This document shows, piece after piece, positions 2,578 to 11,720 of a DNA stretch of 46,002 nucleotides. The stretch comes from Acidobacteriota bacterium (GTDB lineage Bacteria; Acidobacteriota; Terriglobia; Terriglobales; SCQP01): NCBI GenBank assembly GCA_021789895.1, contig JAJYIU010000010.1, positions 65,745 to 111,746 of the forward strand, written 5' to 3'. The translations under genes were made by a program, and so were the position numbers. Under the pieces are notes generated by a model. It worked only from the letters and a program-made list of their open reading frames with translations. It did not search any database and had not been told where the DNA came from. Within the stretch, counting starts at the first letter, position 1. Each line of letters starts with the position of its first letter.

Positions 2578-4074
2578 ATGCAATGGACCCCACAATCCGC
2601 CGCCCAGCGCCTTGCCCTTCAGTCGCCCGCCGAAATCCTGCTCTTCGGCGGCGCTGCCGGCTCGCTCAAGTCCGAAACCATGCTGGTGGATGCGGTCAAG
2701 GAACGCGACAATCCCCGCCTCCGCGCCATCCTCTTCCGCCGCAGCTATCCCGAGCTTGAAAAAAGCCTCATCCGCCGCAGCCGCGAGCTCTACGCCGCCC
2801 TCGGCGCCCGCTATAACGAACAGAAAAAATGTTGGCGCTTCCCCTCCGGCGCGCTGGTCGAGTTCGGCTATTGCGAGTCCGACCACGATATTTACCGCTA
2901 CCAGGGCGCCGAATATTCCTTCATCGGCTTCGACGAATCTACCCACTTCTCTGAATTCCCCCTGCGCTACATGCTCTCCCGCCTGCGCTCCGTCGAGCCC
3001 TCGCTCCGCCTGCGCCTGCGCCTCGCCTCTAACCCCGGCAACGTCGGCCATAACGTTCACAAGGCCATCTTCCACGGCCCCGTCTGCACCCATTGCCGCA
3101 TCACCCCGGCCTCCCGCCTCCCCGGCGAAATCTACTCCGACGCCCTCTGGCCCAGCGACCGCCAGCCCATCCGCAAAACCACTTCCTTCATCCCCGGCCG
3201 CATTGTGGATCATTCCCTGCTCGGCGCCGATTACCGCGAATCCCTCGCCTCCCTCCCCGGCGCCTTCCGCCAAGCCTTGCTCGAAGGTTGTTGGGACGTG
3301 TACGAAGGCCAGTACTTCGACATCTGGGATCCGCGCCGCATGGTCCTCCCCCGCTTCAGCTTGCCGGTCGAGCCCTGGTGGCCGCACTGGATCGGCGCCG
3401 ACTATGGCTTCAATCTCAGCCAGGCCGCCGCCTATCTGCTTGCCAAATCCCCCGCCGACGACCGCTTTCCCCATGGACGCATCTTCGTCCTCGACGAATA
3501 CACCGCCCGCCATCAAAAAGCTTCCGACTTCGCCGTCTCGCTCAAAACCCGCTTTGATCCGCCGCCCGCAACCCCCGGCGCGCCCTCGTCTTCGCTTCCC
3601 CGCCCCGTCTGCTGGTATCTCTCCCCCGATGCCTGGAGCAATCGCGGCGACGATCACTCCCTCGCCGAGCAGATGCGCGAGGCCTCCGGCATCGTTTTCG
3701 AGCCCGCCAGCAACGACCGCATCGGCGGCGCCATGCTGCTCTACACCCAGCTCGACCGCGGCGAGCTCGTTATTGCCGATGCCTGCCGCCAGTTGATCGA
3801 AGCCCTGCCCAGCCGCATGCACGACCCCGGCCGCCCTGACGATGTGTTGAAGATTGCCGGCGATCCGCTCGATGACTGCTTCGACGCCCTGCGCTACGCC
3901 CTCTACAGCTATATCGCCCCGCCTCGCCCCTCCAGCCGGGAGCGCCTCGCGCTCGCCGCCGGCAGCCCCGACCCCACCATCGCCATGCTCCAGCGCCGCC
4001 TCGCCGAAGACCGCCTCCAGCGCGAATGCCGCCCCTTCGCCTACACCCGCCCCCGCCGCTTCCCCGGCTCTTGA
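2578..4074 (+). CDS. Phage terminase large subunit (TerL)
   Basis: A 498-residue DNA-packaging motor. It uses ATP to pump phage DNA into the prohead and cuts the concatemer with its nuclease domain. The N-terminal ATPase domain shows a Walker A-like loop (LLFGGAAGSLKSET, about residues 21-34), a Walker B with catalytic acid (SFIGFDEST, about residues 117-125) and a coupling motif (LASNPGNVGH, near 152). The C-terminal part carries the RNase H-like nuclease start (WIGADYGFN, with the metal-binding Asp) and a later acidic site (YLSPDAWSN). Length is normal for the family. It starts right after a CTGAT/CTGAC-rich leader, is intact, and is the most certain phage gene here. Confidence 0.93.
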   Translation: MQWTPQSAAQRLALQSPAEILLFGGAAGSLKSETMLVDAVKERDNPRLRAILFRRSYPELEKSLIRRSRELYAALGARYNEQKKCWRFPSGALVEFGYCESDHDIYRYQGAEYSFIGFDESTHFSEFPLRYMLSRLRSVEPSLRLRLRLASNPGNVGHNVHKAIFHGPVCTHCRITPASRLPGEIYSDALWPSDRQPIRKTTSFIPGRIVDHSLLGADYRESLASLPGAFRQALLEGCWDVYEGQYFDIWDPRRMVLPRFSLPVEPWWPHWIGADYGFNLSQAAAYLLAKSPADDRFPHGRIFVLDEYTARHQKASDFAVSLKTRFDPPPATPGAPSSSLPRPVCWYLSPDAWSNRGDDHSLAEQMREASGIVFEPASNDRIGGAMLLYTQLDRGELVIADACRQLIEALPSRMHDPGRPDDVLKIAGDPLDDCFDALRYALYSYIAPPRPSSRERLALAAGSPDPTIAMLQRRLAEDRLQRECRPFAYTRPRRFPGS

Positions 4075-4194
4075 GCGCTTTGTATTCTCCATCCCGATGG
4101 CTGCCCGGGATGAACCCAATAGCGGAACGGCGTGATTCGCCGTCGCTTCTTTGTTTCCTTGTCTTCCTATCCCAAATTTCCGGAGTTAACCGTC

Positions 4195-4419
4195 ATGCAA
4201 TTTCACGTCTCGTCCGCTCTCCGCCTCTGGTTGCATGGCCTCGCCGCCGCCGCCCTCGGAGGCGCCGTTACCACTCTCGGCCAGCTCCTAACCTCCCCGG
4301 CCTCTGTGCATTTCACCGCAGCCGCCTGGCGCCATTACGCCGCCGCTGCCGCCGCCGGCTCCCTCCTCGCCGTCCTCGCCTACTTCAAGCAAAGCCCGGT
4401 CAAAGTCACTTTTAAGTGA
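4195..4419 (+). CDS. Small two-helix membrane protein, holin-like
   Basis: A 74-residue protein with two predicted membrane helices (about residues 10-31 and 45-63), a short linker and a basic C-terminus (KQSPVKVTFK). The ATG at 4195 has CGGAG upstream at 4181-4185. Position just after TerL, size and topology fit a class II holin, which would permeabilise the inner membrane for lysis. No endolysin is seen next to it, so the role is inferred. It is the last phage-like gene; the next gene is the convergent hom. Confidence 0.5.
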   Translation: MQFHVSSALRLWLHGLAAAALGGAVTTLGQLLTSPASVHFTAAAWRHYAAAAAAGSLLAVLAYFKQSPVKVTFK

Positions 4420-4496: not shown

Positions 4497-5795
4497 TTAT
4501 GATTCCATCCGCAGCATCAGCACCGGTGCCACCATGAACTCGCACGCCTCGATCGCTTTCACCGCCCGCAGCGCCGTTGCTTCCGCTACCGGCTCGATCG
4601 TGACCACGAACGAGAGCTTCTCCTTTGCCATCTGCGGCGCCTGCACCACCGAGTCAATGTTGATCCCTTCGCGCGCGATGATCTCCGCGATCCGCGCCAA
4701 AATCCCCGGCCGGTCGTCGCGAATCGTCAGCCGCAGGTACCACGGCGCCGGTCCGGCGCTGCCGCTCCAGGGCCCCTGATGGATTTCGGTAAACCCTGAA
4801 ACCGGCTTCGCCCCCAGCGTTCCCGCCGCCATCATCCCCGCAATCTCCATCACGTCCGAGACCACCGCTACCCCCGTCGCCCCTCCTCCCGCTCCCGGGC
4901 CATAAAACATCTGCGTGCCGATATGCTCGCCTTCCAGCAGCACCGCGTTGTTGACCCCTTCCACCTTGGCCAGCGGCGAATCCTGCTTCAACAGCCACGG
5001 ACGCACCGCTGCCTCCAGCGTTCCGCTGCGCATCTCCGCCGTCGCCAGCAGCCGGATTCGCCCGCCCAACTGGCGCGCATAATTCATGTCCACCGCCGAC
5101 ACCCGTTCGATTCCCTGTGCCGGTATCTTAGCCGCCGGCAGCGCCAGCCCGAATCCCAACCGTCCCAAAATCGCCAGTTTGTCGCGCGCATCCTTGCCGC
5201 TGATGTCCATCTCCGGATCGGCTTCCGCATAGCCCAGCCGCTGCGCCGCTTCCAGCGCCGGCGCCAGTTCCGTCTGCCGTTGCTCCATTTCCGTCAGGAT
5301 GTAATTCGCCGTGCCGTTCAAAATCCCCCGGATCGCCCGCAGTCGGTCCGCCGCCGTCCCCTCCGCGATCGCCCGCACCACCGGCACCCCGCCCGCCACC
5401 GAGGCCTCGAACCCCAGCGGCAGATGCTGCTTCTGCGCCAGTTTCAGCAGCGTTTCCCCATGCTCCGCCAGCAGGTTCTTGTTCGCCGTCACCACCGGTT
5501 TGCCCAGCTCCAGCGCCGCCGTCACCGCTTCCCGTGCCGTCCCCGTGCCGCCCATGCACTCGATCACTAAATCCACTTCCGCCGCATTCACCAGCTTGCG
5601 CCAGTCGGCCGTCGCTTGCGCCCCCACCGGAATCTCGCCCGCGTTCAGTTGCGAACGCCGGCAGATCATCCGCACCCGCACCTCCGCCCCGCTGCGCCGG
5701 CGTATCTCCGCCGCATGCTCGCGCAGGATTCGTGCGCTCGCCTGCCCGACCGTCCCGAATCCCAGGATTCCAACCCCGATCTGCTGGCTCTTCAA
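4497..5795 (-). CDS. hom: Homoserine dehydrogenase
   Basis: Converts aspartate semialdehyde to homoserine with NAD(P)H, the branch point to threonine and methionine. The N-terminal Rossmann motif GILGFGTVGQ is followed by VTANKNLLAEHG, the signature GYAEADPEMDISGKDARDKL containing the catalytic Lys, and a C-terminal ACT domain (YLRLTIRDDRPGILARIAEI) expected to sense threonine. Translation most likely begins at TTG 5795, which overlaps the thrB stop (TTGA) and gives 432 residues, the usual length. The open frame runs much further upstream inside thrB, but that part is a shadow of thrB. It is the last gene of nagB-thrC-thrB-hom. The start codon is the least certain point. Confidence 0.93.
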   Translation of the reverse strand: MKSQQIGVGILGFGTVGQASARILREHAAEIRRRSGAEVRVRMICRRSQLNAGEIPVGAQATADWRKLVNAAEVDLVIECMGGTGTAREAVTAALELGKPVVTANKNLLAEHGETLLKLAQKQHLPLGFEASVAGGVPVVRAIAEGTAADRLRAIRGILNGTANYILTEMEQRQTELAPALEAAQRLGYAEADPEMDISGKDARDKLAILGRLGFGLALPAAKIPAQGIERVSAVDMNYARQLGGRIRLLATAEMRSGTLEAAVRPWLLKQDSPLAKVEGVNNAVLLEGEHIGTQMFYGPGAGGGATGVAVVSDVMEIAGMMAAGTLGAKPVSGFTEIHQGPWSGSAGPAPWYLRLTIRDDRPGILARIAEIIAREGINIDSVVQAPQMAKEKLSFVVTIEPVAEATALRAVKAIEACEFMVAPVLMLRMES

Positions 5796-6862
5796 GCTTG
5801 CTTCTTCCTTCCCGGCCGGCGGCGCCGGCGCTGCCGTATCTTTTGCGGCCGCCCGTTGCGCCGCTGCCAAAAAAATGATGCCCCGTGCCCCTCGACCACG
5901 GTCGGTATCAGTTCCGCCCCGGTTTGCTGTTGTTTCAAATACTGCCGGATTCGCGCGATCACCTTCCAGCCCGCAGCCCGTGGATCGAGCACGATCAGCA
6001 CTCCCGGCCCCGCCCCGCTTAACGCTACCCCCGCAATCCCTTCTTCTTCGCGCAGTTCGCCAAAAAGCTTTAGCAGCGGGCACAACGGTTCGCGGTAGGG
6101 CTCGTGCATGCGGTCCCGCATCGCCTTCCGCACCAGATCCACCCGCATCGTTTGCAGCCCCAGCAGCAGCAGCATCGCATGCTGTACGTTGGCGACTGCA
6201 TCCTCGCGCTCATAGCTGGTCGGCAGCGCTTGTCGCGATTCTTCCGTCGCCAGCCCCCGCCGCGGCATCGCCAGCAGGATCGGCCAGGGTAAATGGCTCG
6301 GCAGCTTCCCGGCCGCAAAATTGCCGCCGCCCGCTTCACCCGCCAGCACGGCTAGCCCGCCCAGCCAGCAGGCCGCGGCATTGTCCCCATGCCCTTCCCG
6401 CTTCACCGCTTCGGCCAGCATCCGCTCGTCATTCCAGCGCAATTTGCCAAAATGCACCGCTAGCGCAATTCCCGCCAGCCGCGCTGCCGCCGAGGAGCCG
6501 CAGCCTTTGCCGATCGGAATCCGATTGTTGATCTTTAACTTTAAGGGAATGATCTTACGTCCATGCTCTTCCAGGATTTCCCGGTAAGTATCGAGAATCA
6601 GGTTGGGAGCCGCCTGGCCGCAGATATCCGCGTCCCGCCCGCGCGCCTTCAGCACGAAGGTTTTGGCCTTTTCGGCCGTGATCCGCAGGTGCAACTGCAG
6701 CGCCAGCGCCGCTGCATCGAATCCCGGTCCCAGGTTCGCGGACGTGGCGGGAAATTGCAGCCGCAGCGCGCGCGCCCGCCGCGCCGCCGCTGCCTTGCCT
6801 CGGCCTCGCGGCTTGCGTGCTCGGGCTGGCTTGATGGAAGCCTTCTTTTTCGCTTTCTTCAT
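5792..6862 (-). CDS. thrB: Homoserine kinase
   Basis: A GHMP-family kinase making O-phosphohomoserine, the substrate of threonine synthase and possibly of the SAM-regulated paralogue at 9387. Visible motifs are FPATSANLGPGFDAAALAL, the ATP loop PIGKGCGSSAAARLAGIAL (family usual: PxxxGLGSSAA) and a C-terminal SGAGPGVLIVL. At 356 residues it is longer than typical because of a Lys/Arg/Ala-rich N-terminal tail of about 33 residues before the fold starts. Start ATG 6862 overlaps the thrC stop by 4 nt (ATGA), indicating translational coupling. A later internal start is conceivable, but no better one is seen. Confidence 0.93.
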   Translation of the reverse strand: MKKAKKKASIKPARARKPRGRGKAAAARRARALRLQFPATSANLGPGFDAAALALQLHLRITAEKAKTFVLKARGRDADICGQAAPNLILDTYREILEEHGRKIIPLKLKINNRIPIGKGCGSSAAARLAGIALAVHFGKLRWNDERMLAEAVKREGHGDNAAACWLGGLAVLAGEAGGGNFAAGKLPSHLPWPILLAMPRRGLATEESRQALPTSYEREDAVANVQHAMLLLLGLQTMRVDLVRKAMRDRMHEPYREPLCPLLKLFGELREEEGIAGVALSGAGPGVLIVLDPRAAGWKVIARIRQYLKQQQTGAELIPTVVEGHGASFFWQRRNGRPQKIRQRRRRRPGRKKQA

Positions 6863-8211
6863 TGCGCTAGGGTATCGGCTGCGGCTTCATCCAGCGCCTG
6901 CTTTACCGCTTCCGCGCGCGCCGGCAAATGCCATAGCCGCCGCCGCTCCGCGGCCAGGGCTGTCTCCCAGCCCCGCGTTTCCGCGGCATCGAGCAGGCGG
7001 CCTTCATGAAATTGCATCACGTAATCCGCATCCTTCAAGGTATGTCCCGTCAGCACCAGGATCACGCTCTGTTGCTTGCCGATGAATCCTTCCTGCACCA
7101 GCCGCTTCATCCCCGCCCAGGTCGTGGCCGAGGCCGGCTCGCAGCCGATTCCCTCGGCTCCCAATTCCGCCTTGGCCAGGGCAATTTCCGCTTCGCTTAC
7201 TTCCCGGCAAACCCCGCCGGTCGCTTCCAGCACCCGCACCGCTTTCTTCCACGAAGCAGGTTTCCCAATCCGGATCGCCGTCGCCCGTGTCTCGGCTCGC
7301 ACTTCGATCAGCTTCCGCCCGCCCGCTTCGCGCATCGTCCGCGCCAGCGGATTGGCGCCCTCCGCCTGTATGATCGAAATCTGCGGCACCCGCCGGCACA
7401 GCCCCCACGCCTGCAGCTCCAGAAATCCTTTGCCCAACGCCGAGCTGTTGGCCAGGTTGCCTCCCGGCACGAGTACGTGATCGGGAACTTCCCAGTCCCG
7501 CTGTTCCAGCAGCTCCGCCGCCAGCGTCTTCTGTCCCTCCACGCGATACGGATTGATCGAGTTGACCACGTACACCGGCGCCAGCTCGAGCAGTTCCCGC
7601 AATACCCGCGTGCAGCCGTCAAAATCAGTGTCCAGTTGGCAGGTGATCGCCCCGTAATCCATGCTCTGCGCCAGCTTGTTTCCGGCTATCTTGCCCGAAG
7701 GAATCAAAACCAGGCTGCGCATCCCCGCCGCCGCCGCATACGCCGCCATCGAGGCCGCCGTGTTGCCGGTCGAAGCGCAGGCCACCGCCGTTGCGCCGCG
7801 CTCCCGCGCCCGCGAAACCGCCGCCGTCATCCCCAGGTCCTTGAACGAACCTGTCGGGTTCATGCCCTGATGCTTGGCCCACAAGCCGGCAATGCCGCTT
7901 TGCCGCCGGCAACGCGGCAACTCGTAGATCGGCGTGTTCCCTTCTTCCAGGCTGATGGCCTGGCTGCCTTCGTTCAGGATTGGCAGCAACTCGCGAAAAC
8001 GCCAGACTCCGCTGCGATCCTCGCGCCGGTCCGACTGCCGCCGCTCCCGCCAGCGCCGCTGCCACTCCGCCGCCCCCGCCGGCGTCAGGGTCGTTCCCCA
8101 CGCCAGCTCGTCATAAGCCGCTTCCAGCAGATCGCCGCATGCCTGACACTGCTGCCAGCCGCTGGGTTCGGCAGTGCGTTCCCCGCATCCAATGCAGCGC
8201 AAGTACGCCAT
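6859..8211 (-). CDS. thrC: Threonine synthase (canonical, operon copy)
   Basis: A PLP-dependent fold-type II enzyme converting O-phosphohomoserine to threonine; 450 residues. An N-terminal zinc-ribbon-like element has Cys at about residues 6, 9, 22 and 25. The PLP lysine is Lys124 in NPTGSFKDLGM, and the phosphate-binding region is ACASTGNTAASMAAYAAA. The NPTGSFKD form is the standard threonine synthase signature and contrasts with the paralogue at 9387, which reads FPTLSFKDRVV. It is coupled to thrB by a 4-nt overlap and follows nagB by 6 nt. No riboswitch lies before this operon, so its regulation differs from that of the second copy. Confidence 0.93.
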   Translation of the reverse strand: MAYLRCIGCGERTAEPSGWQQCQACGDLLEAAYDELAWGTTLTPAGAAEWQRRWRERRQSDRREDRSGVWRFRELLPILNEGSQAISLEEGNTPIYELPRCRRQSGIAGLWAKHQGMNPTGSFKDLGMTAAVSRARERGATAVACASTGNTAASMAAYAAAAGMRSLVLIPSGKIAGNKLAQSMDYGAITCQLDTDFDGCTRVLRELLELAPVYVVNSINPYRVEGQKTLAAELLEQRDWEVPDHVLVPGGNLANSSALGKGFLELQAWGLCRRVPQISIIQAEGANPLARTMREAGGRKLIEVRAETRATAIRIGKPASWKKAVRVLEATGGVCREVSEAEIALAKAELGAEGIGCEPASATTWAGMKRLVQEGFIGKQQSVILVLTGHTLKDADYVMQFHEGRLLDAAETRGWETALAAERRRLWHLPARAEAVKQALDEAAADTLAQ

Positions 8212-9064: not shown

Positions 9065-9094
9065 TTGACCGTGGGCGGTTTTTATGGCTACACT
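9065..9094 (+). promoter_or_regulatory. Sigma70-type promoter of the SAM riboswitch transcript
   Basis: A -35 TTGACC (9065-9070) and a -10 TACACT (9089-9094) are separated by 18 nt, placing transcription start near 9101. That is just before the GUAA-loop hairpin and the S-box aptamer. Consensus match only. Confidence 0.55.
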
Positions 9095-9114
9095 GCTAAT
9101 GACAATTTAAGCGT

Positions 9115-9130
9115 GTCTCTGTAAAGAGAC
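9115..9130 (+). other. 5' leader hairpin with GUAA loop
   Basis: A perfect 6-bp stem GTCTCT/AGAGAC closes a GTAA (GNRA-type) tetraloop, between the promoter and the SAM aptamer. It could protect the 5' end of the leader RNA or assist aptamer folding. It is not part of the standard S-box core. Confidence 0.5.
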
Positions 9131-9134
9131 CCTG

Positions 9135-9276
9135 ATCTTATCCAGAGTGGCTGAGGGACAGGCCCGACGAAGCCACGGCAACCGGCAAAGCGATCTTCGT
9201 ATCGCGGTGTGACAAGGTGCCAATTCCTGCCCGCTGGCGCATGCGGTATCCGCACCGCCAAAGGGGAAGATGAGAT
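9135..9276 (+). ncRNA. SAM-I (S-box) riboswitch aptamer
   Basis: Contains the S-box core: CTTATCCAGAGTGGCTGAGG, then GGGACAGGCCCGACGAAGCC, ACGGCAACC, GGTGCCAATTCCTGCC and the closing GGAAGATGAGA. The P1 helix pairs TCTTATC (9136-9142) with GATGAGA (9269-9275). It binds S-adenosylmethionine. The strand that closes P1 (GGGGAAGA, 9263-9270) can instead pair with TCTTCC (9303-9308) as an antiterminator, so high SAM should terminate transcription. It controls the ThrC-like and MoaD-like genes downstream, implying a methionine rather than threonine role. Confidence 0.95.
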
Positions 9277-9300
9277 GAGGCAATGGCTGCAGTTCAACCG

Positions 9301-9335
9301 CCTCTTCCGCCTTTCCCGGTGAAGAGGTTTTTTTA
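9301..9335 (+). terminator. Riboswitch-controlled intrinsic terminator
   Basis: Stem CCTCTTC (9301-9307) pairs with GAAGAGG (9321-9327) and is followed by a run of seven T. It lies between the SAM aptamer and the next gene and competes with an antiterminator formed by aptamer bases 9263-9270. Confidence 0.85.
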
Positions 9336-9386
9336 TTGCCCCTTCCCCGCGGCTGCCTTCTCTCACTCTGGCGATTTGGAGTGGCT

Positions 9387-10667
9387 ATGAGCTTCGCGCT
9401 CGGTTTGCGTTGTCGCGATTGTGGCGAAACCTATCCCTTGGCTCCTCAAGCCGGATGTGAGACCTGCTTTGCGCCGCTTGAGGTCGTCTACGACCTGGAG
9501 GCCCTCGGCCGCGCCCTCCATCCCGCGCGCATCGCCTCGCGCCCGGCTGACATGTGGCGTTATCGCGAATTGCTCCCCATCGAGCCGGAAGCCGCCTCGC
9601 CTCGTCCCCGCCCCACCGGCTTGAAAATTGGCTGGACTCCCCTCCAGCCTGCCCCGCGCCTGGCCCGTAGCCTGGGTGTGCGCGAACTTTACATCAAAAA
9701 CGACGCCGTCAATTTCCCGACGCTTTCGTTCAAAGACCGCGTCGTGGCTGTCGCCCTGGATTGTGCCGTGCGGTTCGGCTTTAACGTCGTCGCCTGCTCC
9801 TCCACCGGCAATCTTGCCAATGCCGTCGCCGCCCAGGCCGCCGCTCTGGGCCTGGAATCGTTCATTTTTACCCCCGCGGACCTGGAAACCGCCAAGATTC
9901 TGGCCACTCGCATCTATGGCGCCCGCCTGATTCAGATTGATGGCAACTACGATCAGGTCAACCGCCTCTGTGGCGAAATTGCGCAGAAGCTTCCCTGGGG
10001 CATTGTCAATGTCAACCTTCGCCCCTTCTATGCCGAAGGCTCCAAAACCGTTGCCTATGAAATTGCCGAGCAATTGGGCTGGCGGTTCCCCGATGCCCTC
10101 GTCTGCCCGATGGCCGGCGGCTCATTATTGACCAAAATCGGCCGCGGTTTCGACGAGTTGCGCGCCCTGGGCTGGGCGAGCGGCGATTCGCGCATCTGCG
10201 GCGCCCAGGCCGCAGGCTGCTCGCCCATCAGTACCGCCGTAAAAAATGGCTCGCGCGAAATCGTGCCGCAAAAGCCGCGCACCATTGCCCGTTCGCTGGC
10301 CATTGGCGATCCCGCCGACGGCTTCTATGCCGCTGAAACCATCCGCCGTACGGGTGGCTGGGCTGAAGATGCCACGGATGAGGAAATCGTCGCCGGCATC
10401 CGCGTTTTAGCGGAAACGGAAGGAATTTTTGCCGAAACCGCCGGCGGCGTTACCGTTGCCGGCGCCCGCAAGCTGCTGGCCTCCGGACGCATTGATCCCA
10501 ATGGCTCGCTCGTCCTGGTCATCTCCGGCAATGGCTTGAAAACTCTGGATGCCGTCGCCGATCAATTCGACCAGCAGGTGGTTTTACCGCCGCGGCTGGC
10601 CGACTTTGAAGCCTATTTGTCTTCCCGCCAGCCTGCCGCCCCGGCCCTGGAAACGGTCCTGGCTTGA
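9387..10667 (+). CDS. Threonine synthase-like PLP enzyme under SAM riboswitch; candidate O-phosphohomoserine-dependent homocysteine synthase
   Basis: A 426-residue fold-type II PLP enzyme of the threonine synthase family. A Cys-pair zinc-ribbon-like N-terminus (C9, C12, C24, C27) precedes the PLP lysine Lys116 in FPTLSFKDRVV, a phosphate loop CSSTGNLANAVAAQAA and a C-terminal VISGNGLKTLD. ATG 9387 follows TTGGAGTGG; an in-frame start at 9336 lies in the terminator tail and is rejected. It is transcribed from a SAM-I riboswitch and followed 21 nt later by a MoaD/ThiS-like gene. Automated annotation would say threonine synthase. The regulation and partner suggest it makes homocysteine from O-phosphohomoserine with carrier-bound sulfur, analogous to CysM-CysO in cysteine synthesis. 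That function is inference. Confidence 0.85.
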   Translation: MSFALGLRCRDCGETYPLAPQAGCETCFAPLEVVYDLEALGRALHPARIASRPADMWRYRELLPIEPEAASPRPRPTGLKIGWTPLQPAPRLARSLGVRELYIKNDAVNFPTLSFKDRVVAVALDCAVRFGFNVVACSSTGNLANAVAAQAAALGLESFIFTPADLETAKILATRIYGARLIQIDGNYDQVNRLCGEIAQKLPWGIVNVNLRPFYAEGSKTVAYEIAEQLGWRFPDALVCPMAGGSLLTKIGRGFDELRALGWASGDSRICGAQAAGCSPISTAVKNGSREIVPQKPRTIARSLAIGDPADGFYAAETIRRTGGWAEDATDEEIVAGIRVLAETEGIFAETAGGVTVAGARKLLASGRIDPNGSLVLVISGNGLKTLDAVADQFDQQVVLPPRLADFEAYLSSRQPAAPALETVLA

Positions 10668-10688
10668 ACCCAGTCATTGGAGCTCTGC

Positions 10689-10967
10689 ATGCCTTATAAC
10701 GTTCGCATTCCCGCTCCGTTGCGCAAATTCACCGCCGGTGTCGAAACCGTCAGTTGCCAGGCCCCCGACCTTGGCGGGATGTTAGCCGAACTCTCCCTGC
10801 GCTACCCCGAGCTGAAGGAACGGCTATGCGAGCCCGACGGCCGCCCTCGCCGCTTTTTCAATGTCTATGTCAATGAAGAGGACATTCGCTTCCTGGGCGG
10901 CGCCCAATATCGCTTTCGCGATGCTGACGAAGTGCTGATCCTGCCCTCGATCGCCGGGGGCCGGTGA
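10689..10967 (+). CDS. MoaD/ThiS-like sulfur-carrier protein with masked di-glycine tail
   Basis: A 92-residue ubiquitin-like beta-grasp protein: MPYNVRIPAPLRKFTAGVET at the start, RRFFNVYVNEEDIRFLGG in the middle, DADEVLILPSIAGGR at the end. Such proteins are adenylated and thiocarboxylated on a C-terminal Gly-Gly and hand sulfur to a partner enzyme. Here one Arg follows Gly-Gly before the TGA, so a peptidase must expose the diglycine, as known for QbsE- and HcyS-type carriers. It is co-transcribed with the ThrC-like enzyme and hence SAM-regulated, which argues against a molybdopterin role. No E1-like activator or JAMM protease is in the window. Confidence 0.88.
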   Translation: MPYNVRIPAPLRKFTAGVETVSCQAPDLGGMLAELSLRYPELKERLCEPDGRPRRFFNVYVNEEDIRFLGGAQYRFRDADEVLILPSIAGGR

Positions 10968-11174: not shown

Positions 11175-11720
11175 ATGATTGCTAAGAAAATATTTCTGAC
11201 CAAGGGCGTCGGCAAGCATCGTGAACGCCTTACCAGCTTTGAGCTCGCTTTGCGTGATGCCGGCATCGCCGCCTGCAATCTGGTGCGCGTCTCCAGCATC
11301 TTTCCTCCCCGCTGCCGCTTGACACCTCGGGCCCAGGGACTGCGCCTGCTGCAGCCCGGCGAAGTCGTCTTCGCCGTCATTAGCGAAAATTCGACCCGCG
11401 AACCTCACCGCCTGATTGCCGCTTCGATCGGAGTCGCGCTCCCCGCCGACCGCAATACCTATGGCTACCTCTCCGAGCACCACTCCTTTGGCCAGACCGA
11501 ACAGCAGGCGGGAGAGTATGCCGAAGAGCTGGCGGCGGAAATGCTTGCCACTACACTCAACGTGGATTTCGATCCTGATCGCTCCTGGGATGAAAAGAAG
11601 GAAATCTACCGTATTTCTAATAAAATCGTCCGCACGCTCAATATCACTCAATCCGCAATTGGCGATAAACGTGGCTTCTGGACCACAGTATTAAGCTGCG
11701 CCATCCTGATCGGAGAATGA
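11175..11720 (+). CDS. Pyruvoyl-dependent arginine decarboxylase
   Basis: A 181-residue PvlArgDC-family protein that decarboxylates arginine to agmatine, the first step of polyamine synthesis or acid resistance. The proenzyme cleaves itself between Ser40 and Ser41 in [11 protein letters not shown], converting the second Ser to the pyruvoyl cofactor. Other conserved parts are [14 protein letters not shown] and [13 protein letters not shown]. Full length and intact, starting at ATG 11175. It has its own likely promoter. The next two genes are co-directional, but a functional link is not evident. Confidence 0.92.

Follow-up and report, generated by a model that had tools for sequence, protein, structure and literature searches.

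A metM–metO unit behind a SAM-I riboswitch as a probable homocysteine route in Acidobacteriota

In Streptomyces, a thiocarboxylated carrier protein, MetO, is reportedly the sulfur donor for homocysteine; its gene is said to lie downstream of metM and the pathway to be widely distributed. The homocysteine synthase MetM was described by Hasebe et al. 2024 (doi 10.1128/aem.01247-24), as cited in PMC12172450. According to the account given there, S. albulus has a SAM riboswitch 5′ of metM and the sulfur-carrier gene metO, and homologues occur in cyanobacteria. A homologue from Microcystis, with a carrier adjacent, was active as a threonine synthase in vitro and showed no clear part in homocysteine synthesis (PMC12172450).

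The thiocarboxylate chemistry is also known from two other systems. In Mycobacterium, MoeZ thiocarboxylates CysO, CysM forms a CysO–cysteine adduct and Mec cleaves the adduct (PMC3227635). Operons of the cysM-mec-cysO-moeZ type are known in other bacteria, including an acidobacterium (PMC1779556). Wolinella succinogenes has an HcyS–MetY thiocarboxylate pathway to methionine (Krishnamoorthy and Begley 2011, as cited in PMC5764234). A 2018 survey of gaps in amino acid biosynthesis left at least one further homocysteine pathway still to be found (PMC5764234).

Here, we analysed a window of 46,002 nucleotides from the genome of a soil-type acidobacterium, in which a threonine-synthase-like gene and a small carrier gene follow a SAM-I riboswitch. 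This metM–metO pair is very probably a transcription unit for homocysteine synthesis under the control of that riboswitch. The pathway itself is known already (Streptomyces, 2024) and the unit is a further instance in Acidobacteriota. What is new is the mutual exclusion with MetX, the single SAM-I riboswitch that genomes of the order carry, the neighbourhoods in many phyla, the capping of carriers and the finding that the active-site motif is not diagnostic.

The riboswitch, the enzyme and the carrier

The complete SAM-I aptamer that the earlier note had read in the leader scores above the RF00162 gathering score of 44.4 (Table 1). Folded in full, the 271-nt leader shows no exceptional stability (z −1.1), so the riboswitch assignment depends on the covariance model. 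The overlapping antiterminator and terminator were likewise recovered by folding, as competing pairings that make up the expression platform. By this anatomy and the known behaviour of SAM-I riboswitches, low SAM would let the antiterminator form and metM and metO be transcribed, and high SAM would let the terminator form. The earlier note began the unit at 9065 because a −35/−10-like pair lies there.

Table 1. Features of the metM–metO unit and of the neighbouring threonine operon, in window coordinates
Feature	Position	Strand	Evidence
Homoserine dehydrogenase, hom	4497..6083	−	NF004976, 435 bits over residues 100–527
Homoserine kinase, thrB; makes O-phosphohomoserine	5792..6862	−	TIGR00191, 213 bits (cut-off 168)
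Canonical threonine synthase, thrC; uses the same substrate	6859..8211	−	TIGR00260, 261 bits
Promoter-like pair TTGACC-18-TACACT, 5′ of the riboswitch	9065..9094	+	Consensus scan, 9/12 matches; weak
SAM-I riboswitch aptamer	9135..9276	+	Rfam RF00162, 81.5 bits, whole model 1–108
Candidate antiterminator, P1 3′ strand with terminator 5′ arm	9262..9312	+	Segment folded alone, −15.7 kcal/mol; inferred
Intrinsic terminator, hairpin GCCUCUUC...GAAGAGGU (9300–9328) and seven U (T run, 9328–9334)	9300..9334	+	Folding, −15.2 kcal/mol
metM-type gene, threonine synthase family PLP enzyme (fold type II), 426 aa	9387..10667	+	TIGR00260, 245.5 bits (cut-off 167.1)
metO-type gene, CysO/ThiS/MoaD-like carrier, 92 aa	10689..10967	+	PF02597 (ThiS), 49 bits

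As had been claimed, the product of the first gene is a fold-type II PLP enzyme and belongs to the threonine synthase family; it also matches PF00291 with 241 bits. Its PLP lysine is K116 by alignment. Among PDB sequences its relatives are threonine synthases (1uim, E 4.7e-54), and its predicted structure (mean pLDDT 86.6) is nearest to threonine synthases as well (Z 39–45).

The second gene starts 21 nt after metM, and the beta-grasp carrier proposed for it is borne out by its ThiS-family match. Its best solved relative in the PDB is the CysO of M. tuberculosis (3dwg_C, 70.8 bits). The encoded C-terminus is ...PSIAGG-R, so MetO probably needs trimming to expose the GG end. Compared with a relative of the same genus, dN/dS is about 0.08 for metM and about 0.06 for metO; both genes are under purifying selection.

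The source genome has 3.75 Mb and is 95.5% complete. Divergent from the metM–metO unit, on the minus strand, lie a nagB-like gene and hom-thrB-thrC (4497–8211); the canonical thrC stands where the earlier note had placed it. The listed hom frame probably begins too far upstream, because it overlaps thrB. The genome has a third paralogue of the threonine synthase family, a metH of 1218 aa and, elsewhere (G000:C76), a cysM-mec-cysO-moeZ operon, and its CysO-like carrier likewise ends with GGR.

Neither metX nor metA/HTS was found in this 95.5% complete genome. The one MetX-like gene (C17:97423, 90 bits) was rejected as MetX, having an N-terminal signal peptide and fitting another hydrolase family, PRK07581, better. 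The earlier note had named the absence of metX/metA, metY/metZ and metB/metC as supporting evidence; this holds for metX and metA, but two PF01053 genes of the metB/metC/metY type are present. These two do not make a canonical route since no acyl-homoserine supply accompanies them. With no homoserine acyltransferase found in the genome, the metM–metO unit is probably its main de novo route to homocysteine.

Family tree, active-site motif and neighbourhoods

In the family tree, a long branch with 100% support divides the MetM-type enzymes from the canonical ThrC of these genomes. This tree was built without the third ThrC paralogue, which formed an extreme branch in a first tree. About 30 positions distinguish the two types, including the PLP-lysine loops, N-x-N-L-R-P, A/G-x-G-S, L143 and D311-G312. 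The closest actinobacterial relatives used are those of Nonomuraea (54% identity, with SAM-I and MetO) and Egibacter.

The difference at the PLP site noted earlier, FPTLSFKDRVV versus NPTGSFKDLGM, is real and PTLSFKDR separates the paralogue from the canonical ThrC, but it is common to relatives that resemble plain threonine synthases. In eight genomes (G042, G055, G065, G075, G093, G123, G130 and G158) a nearly identical motif, mostly PTLSYKDR, occurs in family members that lie beside hom and/or thrB without metO. Such hom-thrB-linked members are nested within the MetM-type tree and do not form a single clade (AU test, p 0.029); a genome with SAM-I and metO (G101) falls inside the group. Hence, the motif marks a different subfamily, not a different product, and was discarded as proof of homocysteine synthesis. 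Neither the blast score nor the PLP motif alone is sufficient for assignment.

These relatives raise the reading that the enzyme is bifunctional and can turn O-phosphohomoserine into either threonine or homocysteine, depending on the carrier or sulfide. They belong to the same clade and have the same active-site motif, yet their operons contain hom-thrB and no metO, and the in vitro threonine synthase activity of the Microcystis homologue (PMC12172450) makes bifunctional or reverted members possible. For the present enzyme we consider it unlikely, as the hom-thrB operon of the genome already includes a canonical thrC and a third paralogue is present, and as a threonine synthase induced when SAM is scarce would use up the precursor of methionine.

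The neighbourhoods were compared at 81 loci, of which one is from Nonomuraea and the other 80 come from the genome collection. They represent Acidobacteriota, Planctomycetota, Verrucomicrobiota, Elusimicrobia, Omnitrophota, Actinomycetota, Myxococcota/Binatota, Neomarinimicrobiota, Thermodesulfobacteriota, Armatimonadota, Poribacteria and Cyanobacteria. A carrier gene lies 3′ of the enzyme gene, within about 330 nt, at 73 of the loci, and a SAM-I riboswitch lies upstream in the same direction at 31 of the 51 loci scanned with Rfam. Other neighbours of metM are moeB/moeZ, mec and cysM, as well as thrB and lysC in Neomarinimicrobiota. All of them are partners expected of a thiocarboxylate route.

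This linkage bears on a second reading, that MetM forms homocysteine from O-phosphohomoserine and free sulfide, the carrier having only an accessory role or working with a different enzyme. PLP sulfhydrylases often accept sulfide, and metO was not found in the sequence covered around metM at L113, L119, L120, L126, L168, L172 and L178. The carrier nevertheless adjoins the enzyme across phyla in the 73 loci above, often together with an E1 and a protease. CysO, a relative of the carrier, gives its sulfur as a thiocarboxylate (PMC3227635), and a methionine pathway by protein thiocarboxylate is recorded for Wolinella (as cited in PMC5764234). We therefore take the free-sulfide route to be very unlikely and retain the thiocarboxylated carrier as the probable donor.

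The ends of the carriers vary. Among 98 carriers, 62 are capped by residues beyond the GG and 36 end at GG, with six switches between the two states on the enzyme tree. A few relatives have GG followed by a long Cys-rich tail. Within the order, all 23 carriers examined have residues beyond GG.

Distribution of metM and metX

Among 29 genomes of the order (Terriglobales), 24 have a complete metM orthologue and another (G023) has one truncated by the end of a contig, with identities of 59–100%. The same 24 genomes each have one SAM-I riboswitch, always directly 5′ of metM. True MetX (376–397 bits) is found only in G014, G019, G024 and G030, the four genomes without metM, and there it adjoins a metY-like gene. 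The metM–metO arrangement is kept across the order, and Edaphobacter and Terriglobus roseus (L133, L140), more distant relatives, also have it, with SAM-I riboswitch, enzyme gene and carrier gene all present.

Redundancy does occur: within the same family, G002, G006, G007 and G010 have metM together with an HTS/MetA-family gene, and the latter lies beside a gene of the sulfhydrylase family.

Across 149 genomes of Acidobacteriota, metM was defined by a blast match to the enzyme at E < 1e-90. By this definition 39 genomes have metM and 38 have MetX, with 2 having both versus 9.9 expected (p 2.6e-4, ignoring phylogeny). Both overlaps, G093 and G130, have hom adjacent and no metO. In all, 9 of the 39 enzyme genomes lack both an adjacent metO and an adjacent SAM-I riboswitch; in most of them the enzyme gene adjoins hom and/or thrB.

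A refined set, defined after seeing the data, leaves out these 9 genomes and gives 30 with metM, 38 with metX and none with both versus 7.7 expected (Fisher p 4.5e-5, with no phylogenetic correction). Thus, metM and metX are mutually exclusive within the order; at the level of the phylum they are so by the refined definition. MetM-type, MetX and HTS all gave no match in 64 of the 149 genomes, which leaves the phylum with other routes, gaps or auxotrophy to account for.

The exclusion speaks against a third reading, in which the enzyme is a second threonine synthase under SAM control and the adjacent MoaD-like gene is unrelated. Comparisons with NCBIfam and PDB do give it that name. In the order and the phylum, however, the gene replaces metX and not thrC, its protein falls outside the branch of canonical ThrC, and its genomic partners are a CysO-like carrier, MoeB/MoeZ, Mec and CysM. 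Control by SAM-I would also act in the wrong direction for supplying threonine: plant threonine synthase is activated by SAM, and the structure comparison includes that enzyme with SAM (2c2b). A mere second threonine synthase is thus extremely unlikely.

That the two PF01053 enzymes of the genome act on O-phosphohomoserine as a cystathionine gamma-synthase and beta-lyase of the plant type, whose gamma-synthase does take this substrate (PMC13257386), leaving MetM another job, is barely credible, as three genomes of 96–99% completeness (G003, G025 and G026) have metM, no metX or HTS and one PF01053 gene each, and as the only SAM-I riboswitch found in the present genome precedes metM.

Homocysteine synthesis by metM–metO thus remains the preferred reading, and throughout the order this unit seems to be the principal way of making homocysteine. 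With no MetX or MetA found in its own genome and MetX excluded in the order and the phylum, it has the distribution of a stand-in for the homoserine acyltransferase routes.

Proposed pathway and comparison with known systems

The earlier proposal, that O-phosphohomoserine and a carrier thiocarboxylate give homocysteine, is supported by comparative genomics and by published precedent; the related Streptomyces report that it mentioned exists and is that of Hasebe et al. 2024 on MetM and MetO, as cited in PMC12172450. In the proposed scheme, MetO would probably lose its last residue, Arg, to the JAMM protease of the cysM-mec-cysO-moeZ operon, and the trimmed MetO would be adenylated and thiocarboxylated by MoeZ. 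ThrB would supply O-phosphohomoserine to MetM. By analogy with Hasebe et al. 2024 and CysM–CysO–Mec, MetM would expel the phosphate on PLP and add the carrier sulfur at C-gamma, and the product would be either free homocysteine or a MetO adduct cleaved by Mec. Homocysteine would then be converted to methionine by MetH, while threonine would come from the separate ThrC.

Capped carriers require trimming ahead of adenylation, a step that MetO would presumably share, and the CysO-pathway machinery of the genome could also serve MetO. JAMM proteases such as QbsD and HcyD trim other carriers. Tentatively, and with the balance slightly against it, the carrier in the order may be a capped inactive precursor that is cut by a JAMM protease before sulfur loading. 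SAM would then gate the RNA and proteolysis the protein, and the protease, probably with MoeZ, would be shared with the CysO pathway.

Beyond Streptomyces, the metM/metX exclusion and the SAM-I pattern support the pathway with independent evidence from genomes. The general family models name metM 'threonine synthase', so the route is missed. When it is overlooked, many Acidobacteriota, Planctomycetota, Verrucomicrobiota and candidate phyla can seem methionine auxotrophs. As an annotation rule, we suggest an adjacent metO and/or an upstream SAM-I riboswitch.

The unit shares features with each of the known systems. It resembles Wolinella HcyS–MetY in the proposed use of a sulfur carrier for homocysteine, and the Wolinella carrier precursor requires C-terminal trimming, as MetO probably does. 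Wolinella MetY is a PF01053 enzyme that uses O-acetylhomoserine; the enzyme here belongs instead to PF00291, and no MetX or other acyltransferase was found in its genome for an O-acetylhomoserine supply.

With the canonical ThrC it has the fold, the PLP lysine and the substrate family in common. It differs in many clade-specific residues and in having a separate thrC in the same genome, from which the long, fully supported branch sets it apart.

With CysM–CysO–Mec–MoeZ the unit shares a carrier nearest to CysO, a fold-type II PLP enzyme and, as proposed, the thiocarboxylate logic. Unlike CysM, the enzyme beside this carrier is of the threonine synthase family rather than the CysK/CysM family; its expected substrate is one carbon longer and its control is presumably by SAM.

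The closest match is with MetM and MetO of S. albulus, as described in PMC12172450: a threonine-synthase-like enzyme, an adjacent carrier, a SAM riboswitch and O-phosphohomoserine as the proposed substrate. The carrier ends with GG-R here versus a bare GG in Nonomuraea. Relative to the published description of S. albulus, the present unit differs in its phylum, Acidobacteriota, and in the separate cysM-mec-cysO-moeZ operon that accompanies it.

MetM-type enzymes and carrier tails

Some MetM-type enzymes are encoded with hom and/or thrB as neighbours and without metO or SAM-I, namely L196 (genome G093), L197 (G130), L199 (G065), L200 (G075), L201 (G055), L207 (G042), L210 (G123) and L211 (G158). 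All of them are nested within the MetM-type tree, and it is possible that they replaced the canonical ThrC or are bifunctional enzymes.

Among the acidobacterial MetO carriers, some (L086 of genome G026, L128 and L129) extend beyond the GG motif into a Cys-rich tail with a common CCSYCGQE(E/D)C pattern. These tails are perhaps metal-binding or regulatory.

Genes around metM-metO and hom-thrB-thrC

The arginine decarboxylase gene following metO probably forms its own transcription unit, separate from metM-metO. The terminase and holin-like pair is a possible prophage remnant adjoining the hom-thrB-thrC operon; at the cut-offs applied, the terminase gene product matched nothing in Pfam or NCBIfam.

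Additional features in the window, its own genome (G000) and an acidobacterial locus (L155)
Feature	Location	Strand	Match or remark
Phage terminase large subunit	window 2578-4074	+	phrog_979, E 4.5e-47
Holin-like gene	window 4132-4419	+	by eye only; adjoins terminase gene
Pyruvoyl-dependent arginine decarboxylase	window 11175-11720	+	next gene 3′ of metO, gap about 200 nt
Third threonine-synthase paralogue (L084)	G000:C76:161165-162295		NF006050, 502 bits
Group II intron domain	L155 485-712	-	RF02005; near metM

Other paralogues and routes

The genes next to the third paralogue resemble, by eye, one for a dicarboxylate transporter and a pair for a 2-oxoacid:ferredoxin oxidoreductase.

In four genomes with metM, an HTS/MetA-family gene adjoins a sulfhydrylase-family gene (G002:C3, G006:C29, G007:C175 and G010:C111). 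We read this pair as a second homocysteine route, possibly an acquired one.
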